Positions 12,064-18,045 of a stretch of 64,000 nucleotides of DNA are shown in pieces. The first letter of the stretch is position 1. Every line of letters starts with the position of its first letter. The stretch covers positions 2,670,501 through 2,734,500 of the forward strand of contig NZ_CP095049.1 in NCBI RefSeq assembly GCF_022919135.1, in the 5' to 3' direction. The notes beneath the pieces are model-generated. The model made no database searches and had not been told where the DNA came from. It saw only the letters and a program-made list of their open reading frames with translations. The position numbers and the translations under genes were made by a program. This stretch comes from Hymenobacter cellulosivorans (GTDB lineage: Bacteria > Bacteroidota > Bacteroidia > Cytophagales > Hymenobacteraceae).

Positions 12064-12426
12064 ATGAAAACCCCGAAAGAGCCCACTGAAGCCCACCGCA
12101 ACTTCTTCCGCGACGTGCACGACGTGGTGCGCCTGATTCCGCGCGGCCGCGTGACCACCTACGGCGCCATTGCCCACTACCTCGGTGCCCGGCACGGGGC
12201 GCGCATGGTGGGCTGGGCCATGATGGCTGCGCACCCCAGCGTAGGTCCGGAGGCTATTCCGGCCTACCGGGTCGTCAACCGGCTGGGCCTGCTCACGGGT
12301 CGGCAGCACTTTGCCACGCCCACGGCTATGCAGGATTTCCTCGAAGCTGAAGGAATTCAGATTGTCGACGACCAGGTGCAGGACTTCAAAACCCGTTTCT
12401 GGGACCCGAGCACCGAGCTGAGCTAG
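12064..12426 (+). CDS. alkyltransferase-like protein (ATL, MGMT-related)
   Basis: 120-residue protein equal to the DNA-binding domain of O6-alkylguanine-DNA alkyltransferase. IPRGRVTTYGAIAHYLG is the helix-turn-helix region with the Tyr that flips the base, and GWAMMAAHP is close to the family's VGxA(M/L)xxNP segment. The active-site motif PCHRV reads PAYRV here, so the acceptor Cys is missing. Alkyltransferase-like proteins lacking this Cys (often Trp in its place) bind alkylated bases and hand them to nucleotide excision repair. A longer in-frame upstream opening exists from 11923, but residues before this ATG do not look conserved. Its stop overlaps the convergent neighbour's stop in a shared CTAG. 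Confidence 0.88.
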   Translation: MKTPKEPTEAHRNFFRDVHDVVRLIPRGRVTTYGAIAHYLGARHGARMVGWAMMAAHPSVGPEAIPAYRVVNRLGLLTGRQHFATPTAMQDFLEAEGIQIVDDQVQDFKTRFWDPSTELS

Positions 12427-13826
12427 CGGCGGCCCAGGCGGTTGCGGAATTTCTTGACGTAGAAAATTCCCTCCTTGGGTATCACCTTCTTAAAAGCCGG
12501 CGCCGCATCGACGGCCGTTGGAATCGTGCATTCCAGGTAAGTGGCGACGGAAAAGTCGGGCACAAAGCTGTGACAGGCTTGCTGGGTGCCCTGTGCACAG
12601 AGCTCAATCTGGCGGCGCCGGTCGTTCCAACTCAGGGCCAGGTAGCTGTTGGGCAGCAAGGTGCCGGCCTCTTTGCCATTGACCAATACCGTCAGGGCCT
12701 GCGTGGGCGCGGCATCGGGGCGGCGGTACAGGTAAATAGCCGCGGTATCGGCCCGGGCAAAGCCGTCCTTATCGACTGTAACAGAAGCCGCCGTGGCCAG
12801 TACCCGCCCCGTAGCCAGGTGCAGTTCGTAGGGGCGGGGTTGCCCCCCGGATATGGCCCCGGCCAGCGCCCCACCAACTAAGCCGCCTACCACTGCTGCC
12901 GTAGCTACATCCGACGAATTGGCGGGCGTAACCCCGGTGAAGGTATAGGACTGGCCCTGGGGCCGAAGCTCAAAAAAGTTGCCGCGGTGCCAGATGTAGA
13001 GCTTTTCGCCGTCGCACATGCCCCAGACGTTACGCACCGGCCGCTCGGGCTTGTCGGGGCTCATGTAGAGGTAGTGGGCGTCCACGTCGTCGGCGCCGGC
13101 CCATTGCTTGCCGGTGCGGGTCCGATGCGTGAGCACGAATGGCTCCTGGTTGATACCCGGCTGATTGGCCTGAAACTCGGCAAAGGTCTGGTAAATGCCC
13201 CGGCGCGGGGGCTCGGTTTGGATGGGGTAACGCAAAGCCATAAGGCCGCCTTGCCCATTCAGTACTTCGGCTTCGGTCAGCAGGGCTCCTACGGCTGAAG
13301 CATTAGCAGGCACCGTTGCTAGCGTAAGCAGACTGTGTTGCAGACCCTGGGAAAGCAGCCCCGCGTGCTTGCTGGTAACGTCCAGGCCACTACTTTCCAG
13401 GGTTTCGGCGTGAGTGGCCAGCACAGCATACGTATCGCCGCGCTTTTCCAGAAAATCAACCATGAGCTCGACTGTGCCAGTTTCGGCTGTCGAGCGGATA
13501 TCCTCACCGATGCTCAGCACGTGAAACCGCATGCTTACGGGTCGCGCATTGCCGTTGGGCTGGGTCCGCTGCACCGGAGGCAACAAAGCTGCTTCCAGGG
13601 GTGCCGCAAAATCAGCTGACGTGAGGGTGTTATCTAGGCCCTGATATACCGTTCCCAGGCGCGTACGGTCTGGGCGGGCATCAATAATTCGTGTTACCCG
13701 GTATTGTCCCGAGGCCTCTAAGGCAATGGGCTGCTTGTTAAGGTCAACGATATAGGTTTGGGCTGCTACCGAATAAGCACTGGCGCTGAAGAGTAATAGC
13801 AGTACGCTGCTAACAAAATTAGGCAT
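12423..13826 (-). CDS. hypothetical secreted/envelope protein
   Basis: 467-residue protein of unknown function. From the ATG at 13826 there is a clear signal peptide (PNFVSSVLLLLFSASAYSVAAQ). An earlier in-frame start would add 36 residues that are not signal-like in order. The central region has an alternating beta pattern (TYIVDLNKQPIALEASG, MRFHVLSIGEDIRS), and residues about 320-335 form a small glycine zipper (AAVVGGLVGGALAGAISGG) that may insert in or touch a membrane. No catalytic motif recognised. It follows the receiver-only regulator by about 150 bases on the same strand, but the hairpin at 13924-13949 separates them. Confidence 0.75.
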   Translation of the reverse strand: MPNFVSSVLLLLFSASAYSVAAQTYIVDLNKQPIALEASGQYRVTRIIDARPDRTRLGTVYQGLDNTLTSADFAAPLEAALLPPVQRTQPNGNARPVSMRFHVLSIGEDIRSTAETGTVELMVDFLEKRGDTYAVLATHAETLESSGLDVTSKHAGLLSQGLQHSLLTLATVPANASAVGALLTEAEVLNGQGGLMALRYPIQTEPPRRGIYQTFAEFQANQPGINQEPFVLTHRTRTGKQWAGADDVDAHYLYMSPDKPERPVRNVWGMCDGEKLYIWHRGNFFELRPQGQSYTFTGVTPANSSDVATAAVVGGLVGGALAGAISGGQPRPYELHLATGRVLATAASVTVDKDGFARADTAAIYLYRRPDAAPTQALTVLVNGKEAGTLLPNSYLALSWNDRRRQIELCAQGTQQACHSFVPDFSVATYLECTIPTAVDAAPAFKKVIPKEGIFYVKKFRNRLGRR

Positions 13827-13923
13827 GTATAAGCAGATAGAACAAAAAACAAGCGGCGCGCTAACAAAGCAAGCCACGTAAAAACCAGGGTAGAAAAGGA
13901 CTGTAGTAAGTCGTCGGCACAAC

Positions 13924-13949
13924 AAAAACGCCATCGGGGCCGATGGCGT
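13924..13949 (-). terminator. terminator after the response regulator
   Basis: Hairpin ACGCCATCG-loop-CGATGGCGT followed on the minus strand by T5, 29 bases past the regulator stop. It closes the transcript of the 7TM/kinase/regulator cluster. Confidence 0.8.
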
Positions 13950-13978: not shown

Positions 13979-14386
13979 TTACAGGATAGCCATACTCGGG
14001 CGGGGTGCATAGCCGGCCGCGGCCAGAATGGCACCGCGCACTTCTTCCGGATTGGCATTCTTGAGCAAGTAGCCGTGGGCCCCTTCACTGTGCAGACTGT
14101 CGATGAGTTCGGGCTCGTCGTGCATGGAAATGATAACAACCCGCACACGGGGGTACTGGGCGCGCATCAGGCGTACAGTTTGCAGGCCATCCAGCGTGGG
14201 CATCTGCAAATCCATCAGTACTACATCGGGCACAATGCCTTGGTCAAGGTGTTCAAGAAGCTCCTGACCGTCACCGGCTTCGAAGAGCACTTCCATATCG
14301 GGAAAGCCACTAATGAGGGCCCGTAGTCCTTTACGAAATAGAATATGGTCATCAACGACGGCTAAGCGGATGATAGGTGCGCTCAT
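13979..14386 (-). CDS. NarL-type response regulator lacking the DNA-binding domain
   Basis: 135-residue receiver domain closest to NarL/FixJ regulators: LAVVDDHILFRKGL opening, phosphoacceptor Asp in VVLMDLQMPTLDG, Ser in VIISMHDE and Lys in YLLKNA, all intact. NarL proteins normally continue with a LuxR-type helix-turn-helix to about 210 residues. Here the frame stops shortly after the last receiver helix and the terminator follows within 30 bases. I see no helix-turn-helix in any minus-strand frame downstream, so the output domain is absent rather than frameshifted. Its ATG overlaps the kinase stop (ATGA). It may act by protein-protein contact, as a phosphate sink, or be a deletion remnant. 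Confidence 0.88.
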   Translation of the reverse strand: MSAPIIRLAVVDDHILFRKGLRALISGFPDMEVLFEAGDGQELLEHLDQGIVPDVVLMDLQMPTLDGLQTVRLMRAQYPRVRVVIISMHDEPELIDSLHSEGAHGYLLKNANPEEVRGAILAAAGYAPRPSMAIL

Positions 14387-15198
14387 ATAGAGGTAGTTAG
14401 GGCGGGCTTTTGATCGACGGGAAGATACGGAATAGGGAAGGAAATCCAAACTTTGCTGCCCGCACCTGGCGCCGATTCGTGGCGCAGTGTGCCGTGGAGT
14501 ACTGCCACCCGACTGCGTAAGTTGGTGAGCCCTAGTCCTGTACGAGCGCCTGCCGTAGGAGGAAGGTCACCGGCGGCCGGGTCAAAGCCCACGCCATTGT
14601 CACGGTACTGGAGCGAGAGATAGTCGGGGCCAAAATCGATGCTCACCTCAATAGTGTCGGCGTGGGCGTGGCGCAGCCCGTTGCCCAGTAGCTCCTGCAC
14701 CACCCGAAATACAATCAGTTCCCGCTTGGGGTCGAGGCGGCGGGGCTGACCACGCTGTTCAATGATGACGTGCGTGGGCCCATCGGCTGGTACGGTACGG
14801 GCCAGGGCGTCGAGGGCGAAGGGTAGACCGAATTTTTGCAGGGCCGCCGGCAGTAGGTTGCGGGAGATGCGGCGTACTTCCCCAATGGCCTGGTCGAGCA
14901 GGGCGGTGGCTTCCTCGGTAAGACTAGGCTGGCCAAGCGTGCTCAGGTGAAGCTTGGCAATGGCCAGGGTAGTGCCCACACCGTCGTGCAGGTCGGCGGC
15001 AATGCGGCGGCGCTCCTCTTCCTGGGCTAGTAGGGCTGCTTCCAGAGCCTGCTGCTGGGAGGCGTCGCGCACCTGCCGGAGCTGTTCTTGCTGACGCAGC
15101 AACCGCCGCTGATACCGCAGCACGAAACCCACAATGCCCAAGGCCAAAAGCAGCAGTACCGGCGTAGCCAGCATCACGGGAAGCAGCCAGCTGTTCAT
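14383..15198 (-). CDS. NarX/DesK-type sensor histidine kinase (HisKA_3)
   Basis: 271-residue histidine kinase with almost no sensor of its own. One N-terminal membrane helix (residues 5-27) leads into a Gln-rich coiled coil (RRLLRQQEQLRQVRDASQQQ), then the HisKA_3 box RRIAADLHDGVGTTLAIAKL with the phosphorylated His, and an HATPase domain with LGNGLRHAHADTIEVS, DNGVGFDP and GLGLTNLRSR. Starts by ATGA overlap with the upstream membrane-protein gene and ends by ATGA overlap with the receiver gene, so all three are coupled. Because it lacks a sensory domain, input through the co-encoded multi-spanning proteins is a reasonable inference. Confidence 0.93.
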   Translation of the reverse strand: MNSWLLPVMLATPVLLLLALGIVGFVLRYQRRLLRQQEQLRQVRDASQQQALEAALLAQEEERRRIAADLHDGVGTTLAIAKLHLSTLGQPSLTEEATALLDQAIGEVRRISRNLLPAALQKFGLPFALDALARTVPADGPTHVIIEQRGQPRRLDPKRELIVFRVVQELLGNGLRHAHADTIEVSIDFGPDYLSLQYRDNGVGFDPAAGDLPPTAGARTGLGLTNLRSRVAVLHGTLRHESAPGAGSKVWISFPIPYLPVDQKPALTTSI

Positions 15199-15884
15199 GA
15201 GCGGGAGTGGTATGATAACGACTGGCCCGCGTACCAAAACGCCAGCGCAAACAACACGTACTGAATAAGATTAACCATAGAATTGAGGGTATAAATCACC
15301 TGATGGCTCGCATAATCAGCGGGTGCAGAAAGCTTGTTGACGAACACATACAGCAGTACGGTACCCGAAAAATACAAAACTACCGCGGTACTTACCAAAA
15401 AAAGTGGGTCCTGCTCCAAGCGGATAACGCGGAGCTCGTTGAGCAGCTGCTCGAAATAAAGCAGGGCCAGCCCAATGAGCAGGGCACTTTGCAGCACATG
15501 GGTGTAGGAATTCATCTGGTGCAGGCCTTCCAGGTACAAAGAGTCCAGAAGAGCAAACGCAGTGAAAGCCACGACTACGGCGGGAAGCAGGCGCCGTAGC
15601 GCGGGTGAAGTCAGGGTGAGGTAATAAATGCGCAGAAACAGCAGGGTCTGCACCAGTGTAAACAAGTGCCAGAGGCTAATGCTCCACACCGGCCAGTACA
15701 ATTCCACCAGGCTCGAAGTCAGCAGCACGATTTCCGTAAATGCCAGGTAGCCCGTCAGCAGCCGCAGGGTAGTGGGTAGTCGGGGCCAGCGCCACACCCC
15801 CAGCCCCAGCGGCAGCAGTACTACCAGCCCGGCTATCTGCTCCAGATATTCACAAACCGTAAGAAGCCACGAAGGAATCTGCAT
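15195..15884 (-). CDS. multi-spanning membrane protein, tandem paralogue 1
   Basis: 229-residue integral membrane protein with about seven predicted hydrophobic helices. It is related to the next two genes upstream by a shared block near residues 145-185: ALLYFEQLLNELRVIRLEQ then DPLFLVSTAVVLYFSGT. This is the most divergent of the three. The start is the ATG at 15884; a longer opening adds a basic, unhydrophobic N-terminus. It overlaps the histidine kinase start by ATGA, the closest coupling in the cluster, so it is the best candidate for a direct sensory partner. I do not recognise a named family; the layout recalls detached 7TM sensor modules of Bacteroidota kinases. Confidence 0.8.
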   Translation of the reverse strand: MQIPSWLLTVCEYLEQIAGLVVLLPLGLGVWRWPRLPTTLRLLTGYLAFTEIVLLTSSLVELYWPVWSISLWHLFTLVQTLLFLRIYYLTLTSPALRRLLPAVVVAFTAFALLDSLYLEGLHQMNSYTHVLQSALLIGLALLYFEQLLNELRVIRLEQDPLFLVSTAVVLYFSGTVLLYVFVNKLSAPADYASHQVIYTLNSMVNLIQYVLFALAFWYAGQSLSYHSRS

Positions 15885-16011
15885 GCAAGGCGTGGCAAAG
15901 GAGGGTGGTAGAACGAAAGAGGCGAGAGAAAAATACGAATTCCTCAATAGGATGTATAATTCCGGGAATAAAAAGTACAGAGCCCAGCCCCAATACGTGA
16001 AATGCCGCCTT

Positions 16012-16725
16012 TTAAGCGTGCGGACCGGGCCACTCCGGGGCGGCGGGCACCTGCTCGGCCGACTGGTCGCCGTTCCAGAGCGCCAGGGCCAAAAAGGTGT
16101 TAAAAACAATCAGCAGAATAAATTGGATGATGTACATAATCCAGATCAGGTCGGGCTGGTTTTGCATCTGCATCTCAAATACAAAGACCATCACCGTGCC
16201 TGCATAGTACAGGATAGAACCCACGCTGACTAGGAACATGGGGTCCCGGCCCAGGTCGATGTTGCGCAGCTCCCGCAGCGTCTGTTCAAAATACGCTACG
16301 GCGGCTCCTACGAGGAGAATGCTCTGAATCAGGTGAATAAACGTGTTGTAGCTAATAAAGAAAGCCTGAGTAAAGCTCAACGGCTCAAGGATAGCCAAGC
16401 CCAGAAAAAGCCCTACTGCTGTCAGTAAAATATAGCGGCTGCGGCCAGAGTGAAAGGCGTAGTAGTAGGCCCACCCGAGCAGTAGACTTTCCCCAATCGT
16501 GGCCAGACGCAAAAACAGGATATTATTGTGGAGCACGTGCCGGCCATATTCCGCCAGTGCCCCATTCAGCAGGGCCCCGGGCAGTAGCACAAACCAAAAC
16601 AGGGGCCGGTAAGCAGGAAGCAGCCGTTTCCAGCGACGGATGCCAATTCCCAACGGAATCAGATAAGTAAGCAGCGCCACATTATTAAACTGCTTGGCAA
16701 ACTCTACTAACCACGCGCTATCCAC
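16012..16725 (-). CDS. multi-spanning membrane protein, tandem paralogue 2
   Basis: 237-residue integral membrane protein with about seven hydrophobic helices and a short hydrophilic C-terminus. The start codon is GTG. It shares with paralogue 3 the block YFEQTLRELRNIDLGRDP followed by MFLVSVGSILYYAGTVMVFV, and also EYGRHVLHNNILF versus EVGRQVWHNNIFS near residue 60. The amphipathic LRELRNI segment between two helices is probably cytoplasmic and would be a natural contact for a kinase. Gap to the next gene is 127 bases. Function unknown; co-location with the kinase and receiver suggests signal input. Confidence 0.8.
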   Translation of the reverse strand: MDSAWLVEFAKQFNNVALLTYLIPLGIGIRRWKRLLPAYRPLFWFVLLPGALLNGALAEYGRHVLHNNILFLRLATIGESLLLGWAYYYAFHSGRSRYILLTAVGLFLGLAILEPLSFTQAFFISYNTFIHLIQSILLVGAAVAYFEQTLRELRNIDLGRDPMFLVSVGSILYYAGTVMVFVFEMQMQNQPDLIWIMYIIQFILLIVFNTFLALALWNGDQSAEQVPAAPEWPGPHA

Positions 16726-16882
16726 GGGTGGGACGATAAGGAATAGACATGGGCAAAAGGTGTGGTACTGGAGCGGAGGGTAAGCAAAACAAGCCGGGCC
16801 CGGAATTGGACCTGCCCAGTAACCCTGGCTGGGGCCTTGGCTACTTTGTAAAGTTTTATAAACTGGTCGCAGCTATGCGTAG

Positions 16883-17587
16883 TTAAACGTTGGTAGAGCC
16901 GGGTAGCAGTACCGTGCCTGAATTCTTGCTGCTGTTGTATAAGGCTAAGGCCAACAGGCAGTTGAAGGCAATCAGTAGAACTGACTGAATGCTGTACATC
17001 AACCAGATTTGATTGATCTGGTAGTTTTTCTGCATGGAATCTTCCAGCACGAATACCATTAACGTGCCCGAATAGTACAGGGTAACGCCGACGCTCACCA
17101 GAAACATGGGGTCGCGCTCCAGACGGATATTGCGTAACTCCCGCAGGATCTTTTCGAAATACATTAGCGCCGCCCCGATTAGCAGCAGGCTTTGAGCCAT
17201 ACGGGTGTAGGTCTTGGTGCCGTACAGCCCGGCCCAGAATACATACTCGACAATGGCAGTAACCAGGAAAACTGCTACGGTCATTACCAGCAGCTGCTGA
17301 TTTAGCCGGGTATTGAAGGTCTTGTAATATGCGTAGCTCAAAAACAGCGTCTCCGACCAGAGAATGAGGTAGGTGGAGAAAATATTGTTGTGCCACACCT
17401 GCCGCCCTACTTCTGCCCAGACATTCAGTACCAGAATGAGTAGCAGGGCAGCCCCGATGCGCAGCCGATGCGGCAACACCGGCCAACGCCAGACACACAC
17501 GGCTACTGGGAGCAAGTAACAACAAACCGAGAGCAGGTTCAATTGCTTGGCTATAGTCACCAGCAGAGTGTGGTCTGGCATTGGCAT
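16883..17587 (-). CDS. multi-spanning membrane protein, tandem paralogue 3
   Basis: 234-residue integral membrane protein, about seven hydrophobic helices, first of the three tandem copies in transcription order. The conserved block is YFEKILRELRNIRLERDP then MFLVSVGVTLYYSGTLMVFV; a second match to paralogue 2 is EVGRQVWHNNIFS. The start is only nine bases after the stop of the CPNCC protein gene, so those two are probably co-translated. Tandem duplication followed by divergence is the simplest origin for the three genes. No enzyme motif is visible. Confidence 0.8.
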   Translation of the reverse strand: MPMPDHTLLVTIAKQLNLLSVCCYLLPVAVCVWRWPVLPHRLRIGAALLLILVLNVWAEVGRQVWHNNIFSTYLILWSETLFLSYAYYKTFNTRLNQQLLVMTVAVFLVTAIVEYVFWAGLYGTKTYTRMAQSLLLIGAALMYFEKILRELRNIRLERDPMFLVSVGVTLYYSGTLMVFVLEDSMQKNYQINQIWLMYSIQSVLLIAFNCLLALALYNSSKNSGTVLLPGSTNV

Positions 17588-17596
17588 GGAATAGCA

Positions 17597-17926
17597 CTAA
17601 TTCGTAAGCGGACTGTCTGCCGCGCAGCAGTTAGGACAAGTTGGGCCGGTGGCCAGCATTACGCGGTTGTACATGTCATCCATATCTGCCTTCACGCCGA
17701 CCAGTACGAAGCCACCCTGCCCGTTATCGTCGATGGCGTTGTAGATGCGGATGCCCACAAACTCGGACCCGCAATCATCGATTAATTCCTTGAGCTTGTT
17801 TTTACCAAAAAACTGACCTTTAAATACGGGCTTAGAATCATCCGGGCACTCATTGTAGTTGTGGGTCATGCCCGCTGCTACCGTCTCATCTACGATGGTG
17901 CCTTCGTTGCCGTCAAAAGTATTCAT
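17597..17926 (-). CDS. small hypothetical protein with C-terminal CPNCC
   Basis: 109-residue hydrophilic, acidic protein, start ATG at 17926, no signal peptide from this start. It is mostly strand-helix in character (GQFFGKNKLKELIDDCGSEFVGIRIYNAID) and ends with GPTCPNCCAADSPLTN. The Cys-x-x-Cys-Cys cluster plus two earlier cysteines could bind a metal or serve in thiol exchange; neither is shown. It is the first gene behind the promoter at 17990-18019 and is followed after nine bases by a 7TM gene, so it belongs to that cluster. I cannot name the family with confidence. Confidence 0.75.
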   Translation of the reverse strand: MNTFDGNEGTIVDETVAAGMTHNYNECPDDSKPVFKGQFFGKNKLKELIDDCGSEFVGIRIYNAIDDNGQGGFVLVGVKADMDDMYNRVMLATGPTCPNCCAADSPLTN

Positions 17927-17989
17927 GCAAGAGTGTGTTAGGAAGTAAGTAAGAAATTGTAGAACAAAAATGCTCAACCGCTGAACAGT

Positions 17990-18019
17990 CAAATATAGGG
18001 CAAACCGTATTGGATGCAA
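17990..18019 (-). promoter_or_regulatory. promoter of the 7TM/kinase cluster
   Basis: On the minus strand TTG at 18019-18017 is followed after 19 bases by a perfect TATATTTG (17997-17990). This matches the Bacteroidota sigma-A pattern (TTTG, about 19 bases, TAnnTTTG). Transcription would begin near 17983, leaving a leader of about 55 bases before the 109-residue protein. Confidence 0.7.
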
Positions 18020-18045
18020 GCAGTCTTACTTCGTTTTCACTCAGC

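Follow-up and report, generated by a model that had tools for sequence, protein, structure and literature searches.

Membrane proteins that are encoded separately from the histidine kinase they act on are known, with LiaF, VraT and Abx1 as examples (PMC3543457, PMC9380581, PMC8534201, PMC3578759). Here, we analyse a locus of Hymenobacter cellulosivorans, on the minus strand of a 64,000-nucleotide stretch of its closed 6.1 Mb genome (the window; contig NZ_CP095049.1, G000:C1:2670501-2734500), which encodes a small protein with a CPNCC tail (the CP protein), three seven-transmembrane (7TM) proteins, a histidine kinase and a response regulator. We consider it probable that these components form a four-part signal transduction module, in which the 7TM protein would be the kinase's detached receptor and the CP protein its dedicated soluble or anchored partner.

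In the UhpC-UhpB-UhpA system, a separate polytopic receptor is combined with a HisKA_3-type kinase and a NarL-type regulator; UhpC is homologous to transporters and has 12 helices, and UhpB contains its own multi-helix region. The kinases CovS and WalK have sensor regions of their own, sensory rhodopsin works with a transducer, and Agr and ComQXPA are cell–cell signalling systems.

Organization of the locus

The features of the locus are as follows.
17990..18019, minus strand: conserved element resembling a promoter, TTG-N19-TATATTTG, located between xseB and CP
17597..17926, minus strand: CP protein, 109 amino acids, ATG start (family comparison, AlphaFold)
16883..17587, minus strand: 7TM-A, seven-helix membrane protein, 234 amino acids (paralogue comparison, AlphaFold, loop charge)
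16012..16725, minus strand: 7TM-B, paralogue of A, 237 amino acids, GTG start (sequence comparison)
15195..15884, minus strand: 7TM-C, paralogue adjoining the kinase and best conserved of the three, 229 amino acids (sequence comparison)
14383..15198, minus strand: HisKA_3/HATPase_c histidine kinase, 271 amino acids, one membrane helix (Pfam)
13979..14386, minus strand: receiver-only response regulator, 135 amino acids (Pfam; ATGA overlap with the kinase stop)

Along the minus strand, the order is xseA, xseB (both named by eye), promoter-like element, CP, 7TM-A, 7TM-B, 7TM-C, kinase and receiver. All six genes recognized by the initial annotation are present at 13979-17926, whereas its 5' limit of 18019 corresponds to the upstream TTG, the CP gene starting with ATG at 17926. 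Two ATGA overlaps occur, one between 7TM-C and the kinase, as had been annotated, and one between the kinase and the receiver. In searches, the 7TM-C query spanned 15195-15881. Among the six gene products, only the kinase and the receiver exceeded a Pfam or NCBIfam cut-off; no model did so in the CP or 7TM proteins.

Linkage of 7TM genes to histidine kinases

The genome containing the window has four 7TM genes at two places, both adjoining short HisKA_3 kinases; at the second place, a CP match lies upstream and a longer regulator frame downstream. The 7TM family was detected in 27 of 39 related genomes, with 70 matches forming 53 clusters. Within 4 kb downstream and on the same strand, a HisKA_3 domain from the 149 listed matches was located for at least 34 of these clusters. 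Hidden Markov model (HMM) searches of the other 19 brought up a kinase no more than 1.3 kb downstream in 14 and a regulator alone in one (L043), so that a kinase lies just downstream in 48 of the 53 clusters. Among the same 149 listed matches, frames of up to 450 amino acids were linked to a 7TM gene in 34 of 49 cases and longer frames in 0 of 100 (p 3.6e-22). The cluster at L035 lies at a contig end, and in three same-genus genomes (L037, L042 and L047) the 7TM gene directly follows mpl, as judged by eye. In the genomes considered by name, the complete module is present at seven of ten loci, that of H. elongatus being split over two contigs (L147, L150).

Across the phylum, a 28-row 7TM profile retrieved the family in 44 of 247 genomes and 27 of 121 genera; one 7TM-family protein match is named Ignavibacteriales. 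Outside the genus, 65 places were listed, and the 60 regions read include 64 of these; HMM searches placed a kinase no further than 1.3 kb downstream in 54 of the regions and a kinase or regulator in 56. At L088, scored as lacking a kinase, the kinase frame overlaps the 7TM frame. Homologues spread without kinase linkage, which the initial annotation had named as the outcome contrary to its proposal, are therefore not the pattern in either sample, and its reading of the 7TM proteins as detached, duplicated sensor modules appears well supported by the linkage. The expectation that they always sit beside HisKA_3 kinases was borne out in part: most are kinase-linked, but HisKA kinases and kinases with PAS domains are also partners, and exceptions exist.

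Altogether, 88 loci were considered, of which 73 have an adjacent HisKA_3-type kinase by the cut-off used; 67 of the 73 also have a regulator. The gap between the 7TM gene and the kinase is, as called, below 40 bases in 67 of the 73, and in these 73 loci the 7TM protein is a separate open reading frame (ORF) of 202-291 amino acids, not fused to the kinase. The adjacent kinases are similarly uniform, with 71 of 73 between 210 and 293 amino acids long and 68 of 73 containing one membrane segment.

In the window kinase, HisKA_3 and HATPase_c exceed the Pfam cut-off and no further domain does; a single hydrophobic segment is visible by eye, in agreement with the annotation of a one-helix kinase lacking a sensory domain. 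The columns of His71, Asn173 and Gly202/204, representing the H, N and G boxes, are invariant across 45 aligned kinases. Seven further kinase loci were examined with Pfam: HisKA was over the cut-off in L038, L045, L090, L095 and L158 and under it in L085, and L101 matched HisKA_3. The partner kinase in L158 carries its own receiver. As the partners include HisKA and PAS kinases and not only HisKA_3 kinases, the 7TM protein appears to be a portable input module. Regulators are 132-158 amino acids long as called in seven Hymenobacter xse-type loci and 196-239 elsewhere, with one of 286; two longer ones examined with Pfam (L053 and L111) contain a LuxR-type domain. The regulator is long enough for a DNA-binding domain in most relatives, whereas that of the window is a bare receiver.

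The 7TM family

The three 7TM proteins of the window are paralogues, B and C being respectively 45 and 33% identical to A. The AlphaFold model of 7TM-A (predicted local distance difference test, pLDDT, 88.7; predicted template modelling score, pTM, 0.84) has eight helix elements, which correspond to seven helices because elements 6-23 and 25-33 read as a single kinked helix. The loop charges, positive inside, give an N-out/C-in topology. The modelled bundle is like those of G protein-coupled receptors (GPCRs) and rhodopsins, but bundles of helices may look alike by chance, and no significant sequence match to GPCRs or sensory rhodopsin was found. The only lysine of the last helix, K221, lies at its cytoplasmic end, which leaves no retinal site in 7TM-A.

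The cytoplasmic-looking segment that had been proposed as a docking face common to all three proteins is exact in A and B (LRELRNI...RDPMFLVS), but 7TM-C has the diverged form LNELRVI...QDPLFLVS, and the claim that all three share it was therefore slightly too strong. Across 44 family members, one residue reaches at least half of the sequences in this segment only at L148 (61%), P160 (50%) and F162 (75%), and position 163 is mostly W. The 44-row alignment contains no invariant position, and the only near-invariant polar position is N68. At E 0.1, no Pfam model hits more than two of the 44 members.

The CP family

The CP protein of the window has no visible leader and consists of a small alpha/beta core and the CPNCC tail (AlphaFold pLDDT 85.7). 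The family is divergent, with a core of about 80 residues containing a GIRxY motif, followed by the tail. Among 103 distinct proteins, the tail is CPxxC in 70; it has CP but lacks the second cysteine in 12, has PP and no cysteine in 18, and is of another form in three. No Pfam model hits more than one of 42 members at E 0.1.

The CP protein is a conserved co-occurring fourth component, usually encoded directly upstream of the 7TM gene. It was found in 26 of the 39 related genomes, all of which also contain a 7TM match. Both families occur together in 33 genomes of the phylum sample, 7TM alone in 11, CP alone in five and neither in 198. HMM searches retrieved an upstream CP gene at 36 of the 60 loci read across the phylum and at 11 of the 19 related-genome loci without a listed HisKA_3 match, and in many remaining loci the upstream protein has a CP look, as judged by eye. 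A profile of 12 divergent upstream proteins, two of which were already CP HMM matches, aligns with the CP family (hhalign 95.8%, E 6.7e-9).

Where a CP match had no 7TM gene listed beside it, the surrounding sequence was read; 19 such stretches were covered, one further in G057 being left out. Setting L154 and L155 aside, a wider profile recovered a 7TM gene in 12 of the other 17, and L157 and L159 on reading have a multi-spanning ORF between CP and the kinase; no 7TM gene was found in L168, L169 and L172. L154 (from the window's own genome) and L155 (a congener) encode orphan lipoproteins with two CP domains apiece. The former (L154:4618-5361, equal to G000:C1:4686117-4686860) has a CPYTC tail and adjoins a RecQ-like gene, as judged by eye, and a 7TM or kinase gene is absent from the 11 kb read around it.

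Divergence of the components

The order 7TM-A, B, C is kept in several species, and B and C are best matches of their positional counterparts where both were called. Compared with H. lucidus, H. metallicola and H. nitidus, the window kinase is 96-97% and the receiver 93-94% identical, whereas the values are 76-80% for 7TM-C, 61-67% for 7TM-B, 49-62% for 7TM-A and 57-79% for CP. The same contrast is found with H. persicinus (kinase 90, receiver 90, 7TM-C 63, 7TM-B 49, 7TM-A 54 and CP 45%). For scale, the neighbouring xseA and peptidase frames are about 79-82% and 83-88% identical across the species compared. The ratio of non-synonymous to synonymous substitution rates (dN/dS) is at most 0.31 where synonymous sites are unsaturated, many being near saturation. 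The gradient of conservation towards the kinase fits a model of variable inputs on a constant transmitter.

Promoter-like element and variant arrangements

The promoter predicted by the initial annotation is credible: TTG-N19-TATATTTG lies 5' of the CP gene in seven of nine Hymenobacter loci compared, the window counted. A longer element at 17990-18021, GCTTGCATCC-N8-TTGCNCTATATTTG, has a single match in the window's own genome with up to three mismatches allowed. Its conservation among seven species exceeds what a core promoter needs, and it may also bind a regulator.

Several loci deviate from the order of the window. At L014, L016, L151 and L153, with H. metallilatus and H. rigui among the species, the kinase is preceded by CP-7TM-CP-7TM, as if the two genes had been duplicated together; in the window, a single CP gene accompanies three 7TM genes. 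Two CP-like genes precede a single 7TM gene at L167, and at L142 the kinase is flanked by 7TM genes on both sides. In L041, L045, L049 and L051, CP is absent and the 7TM gene lies ahead of a regulator (in L045 of the OmpR type according to Pfam) and a HisKA-like kinase, a different attachment to a two-component system. At L105 and L120, a CP-type lipoprotein gene and one or more 7TM genes follow a rho-like gene (by eye) and no kinase was found, suggesting that the CP-7TM pair can be retained by itself.

Proposed mechanism and alternatives

From the observed gene content, gene order, co-occurrence, predicted shape and rate contrast, we infer physical contact between the components, a receptor role, a direction of control and convergence of inputs. 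The 7TM protein would lie in the inner membrane in N-out/C-in orientation and, alone or with CP bound via its tail, would shift conformation upon a ligand or a change in envelope state. Through helix–helix contact, the signal would reach the kinase at its coil and single membrane helix, and the kinase would then phosphorylate (or dephosphorylate) the last-encoded regulator. As three 7TM paralogues would feed one kinase in the window, several inputs probably converge on one output. A more specific form, akin to peptide-GPCR signalling, in which a GPCR-like, non-enzymatic 7TM protein recognizes CP by its CPxxC/PP tail and couples to a shared one-helix kinase, is doubtful; if it is true, duplicated CP-7TM pairs would let one kinase read several signals.

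A number of observations count against the detached-receptor reading. No kinase or regulator was found just downstream of the 7TM gene at L037, L042 and L047 in the related genomes, nor at L105, L120 and L140 in the phylum sample. L133 has a kinase and regulator upstream and none just downstream, and in H. busanensis (L152) they occur only on the opposite strand, more than 3 kb off. Some partner kinases, namely those of L085 (667 amino acids), L158 (684 amino acids), L090 and L101, have PAS domains. Fast evolution is also seen in the neighbouring ORF at 12423-13934 (29-69% identical). The polar positions conserved in the 7TM family are distributed over both faces, so that an outer pocket is not singled out. 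Forty-five of the 54 CP places in the related genomes lie within 2.5 kb ahead of a 7TM gene, but the CP profile was built from 7TM-adjacent proteins and favours finding such places. A leader is absent in 80 of the 103 CP proteins and 23 are lipoproteins or anchored, by a crude rule that misses some lipoproteins, and no single model of CP location therefore fits. Moreover, adjacent genes can share regulation without their products touching.

The pairing statistics are to be read in the same light. Distances between 7TM proteins and kinases correlate at 0.85 over 73 loci (the largest of 2000 permutations reached 0.13) and those between CP and 7TM at 0.73 over 60 loci, but vertical inheritance alone raises such correlations. 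When partners were swapped within a genome, the true pairing was better in 29 of 36 7TM-kinase pairs and 13 of 17 CP-7TM pairs, although the swap-test pairs are not independent because many repeat two orthologous loci of one genus.

As an alternative, the 7TM protein may be a membrane inhibitor or stabilizer of the kinase, in the manner of LiaF, the kinase helix itself sensing stress or lipid state and no ligand receptor being involved. LiaF and Abx1 inhibit their partner kinases (PMC3543457, PMC3578759) and VraT is required for full kinase activity (PMC9380581). The window kinase is of the HisKA_3 type and matches the LiaS model with E 1.6e-21, far under the model cut-off. Nevertheless, strongly varying and multiplied input genes beside a constant kinase are more easily reconciled with several inputs than with a single inhibitor, and the variety of kinase types among the 7TM partners also makes the inhibitor explanation rather unlikely.

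We consider it improbable that the 7TM protein processes or exports CP, with the tail matured into a signal peptide and the kinase acting as its receptor, as in Agr or ComQXPA. The gene order CP, membrane protein, kinase, regulator would fit such peptide signalling, as would divergent, mostly leaderless CP proteins whose conserved tail end often contains cysteines. However, a single helix in 68 of 73 kinases leaves little room for a receptor region, no position of the 7TM alignment is invariant and N68 is the only polar one that is nearly so, 18 of the 103 CP tails are without cysteines and some CP proteins are already lipoproteins. Least likely is a loose neighbourhood in which 7TM and CP have another membrane function and ride with kinase genes: loci with 7TM or CP-7TM and no kinase exist, but the linkage in both samples, the mostly short gaps and the contrast of short with long kinase frames in the 39 genomes speak against it.

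Comparison with known systems

No description or name of the 7TM or CP family, or of the module, was found in searches of the open-licence literature. Sensor-less kinases are common and their input is usually obscure; in the present case, two families without a Pfam match above cut-off appear to supply the missing sensor, and both become annotatable. With 7TM in about a sixth of the sampled phylum genomes, the input of many orphan kinases becomes testable, and kinases with one to three candidate receptors are a natural set in which to study the transfer of signals from one protein to another by membrane helices.

By analogy, the module may work like the LiaF, VraT and Abx1 partners or like a receptor–kinase pair such as UhpC-UhpB. 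Like LiaFSR and VraTSR (PMC3543457, PMC9380581), it combines a separate membrane protein, a kinase without a large sensor domain (here HisKA_3) and a regulator. In contrast to those systems, the partner has seven helices and no recognized domain, occurs in tandem copies and is accompanied by the additional CP component, in the phylum Bacteroidota. A LiaF/VraT-type protein was rejected as a candidate by sequence, no Pfam or NCBIfam model being over its cut-off in the three window 7TM proteins and no Pfam model recurring beyond two of the 44 members; Pfam presumably includes a LiaF model. Multi-spanning Abi-domain proteins also control CovS, by direct contact with Abx1, and WalK, through SpdC (PMC3578759, PMC5854430). 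Pfam reported no Abi domain in the window proteins, which differ in this from Abx1 and SpdC. The UhpB model matches the window kinase with E 1.6e-23, far under the model cut-off; a UhpC-type receptor was rejected, the 7TM protein having seven helices and no transporter domain in Pfam.

Seven helices and a periplasmic N-terminus are also features of 7TMR-DISM and of the BtsS/LytS 7TM kinases, the BtsS ligand site being on the periplasmic side (PMC10653868). In those proteins, the 7TM region is fused to the kinase, whereas here it is a separate ORF. An analogue of the fused type is encoded in the same genome at G000:C1:112255-113193, where a 7TMR-DISM_7TM match and a HisKA_3 match are separated by about 100 bases, the frames having equal length. 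The 7TMR-DISM model itself (PF07695) was not detected in the window proteins and matched only two of 44 members weakly (best E 0.0082), and profile comparison gave no sequence relation (hhalign 1.8%). HisKA_7TM (PF16927) was likewise rejected, with no match in the window proteins or in any of 25 same-genus genomes and hhalign 0.4% to one member; UniRef names two relatives HisKA_7TM. Unlike GPCRs and sensory rhodopsin, the 7TM proteins have a histidine kinase as partner, and 7TM-A lacks a retinal site.

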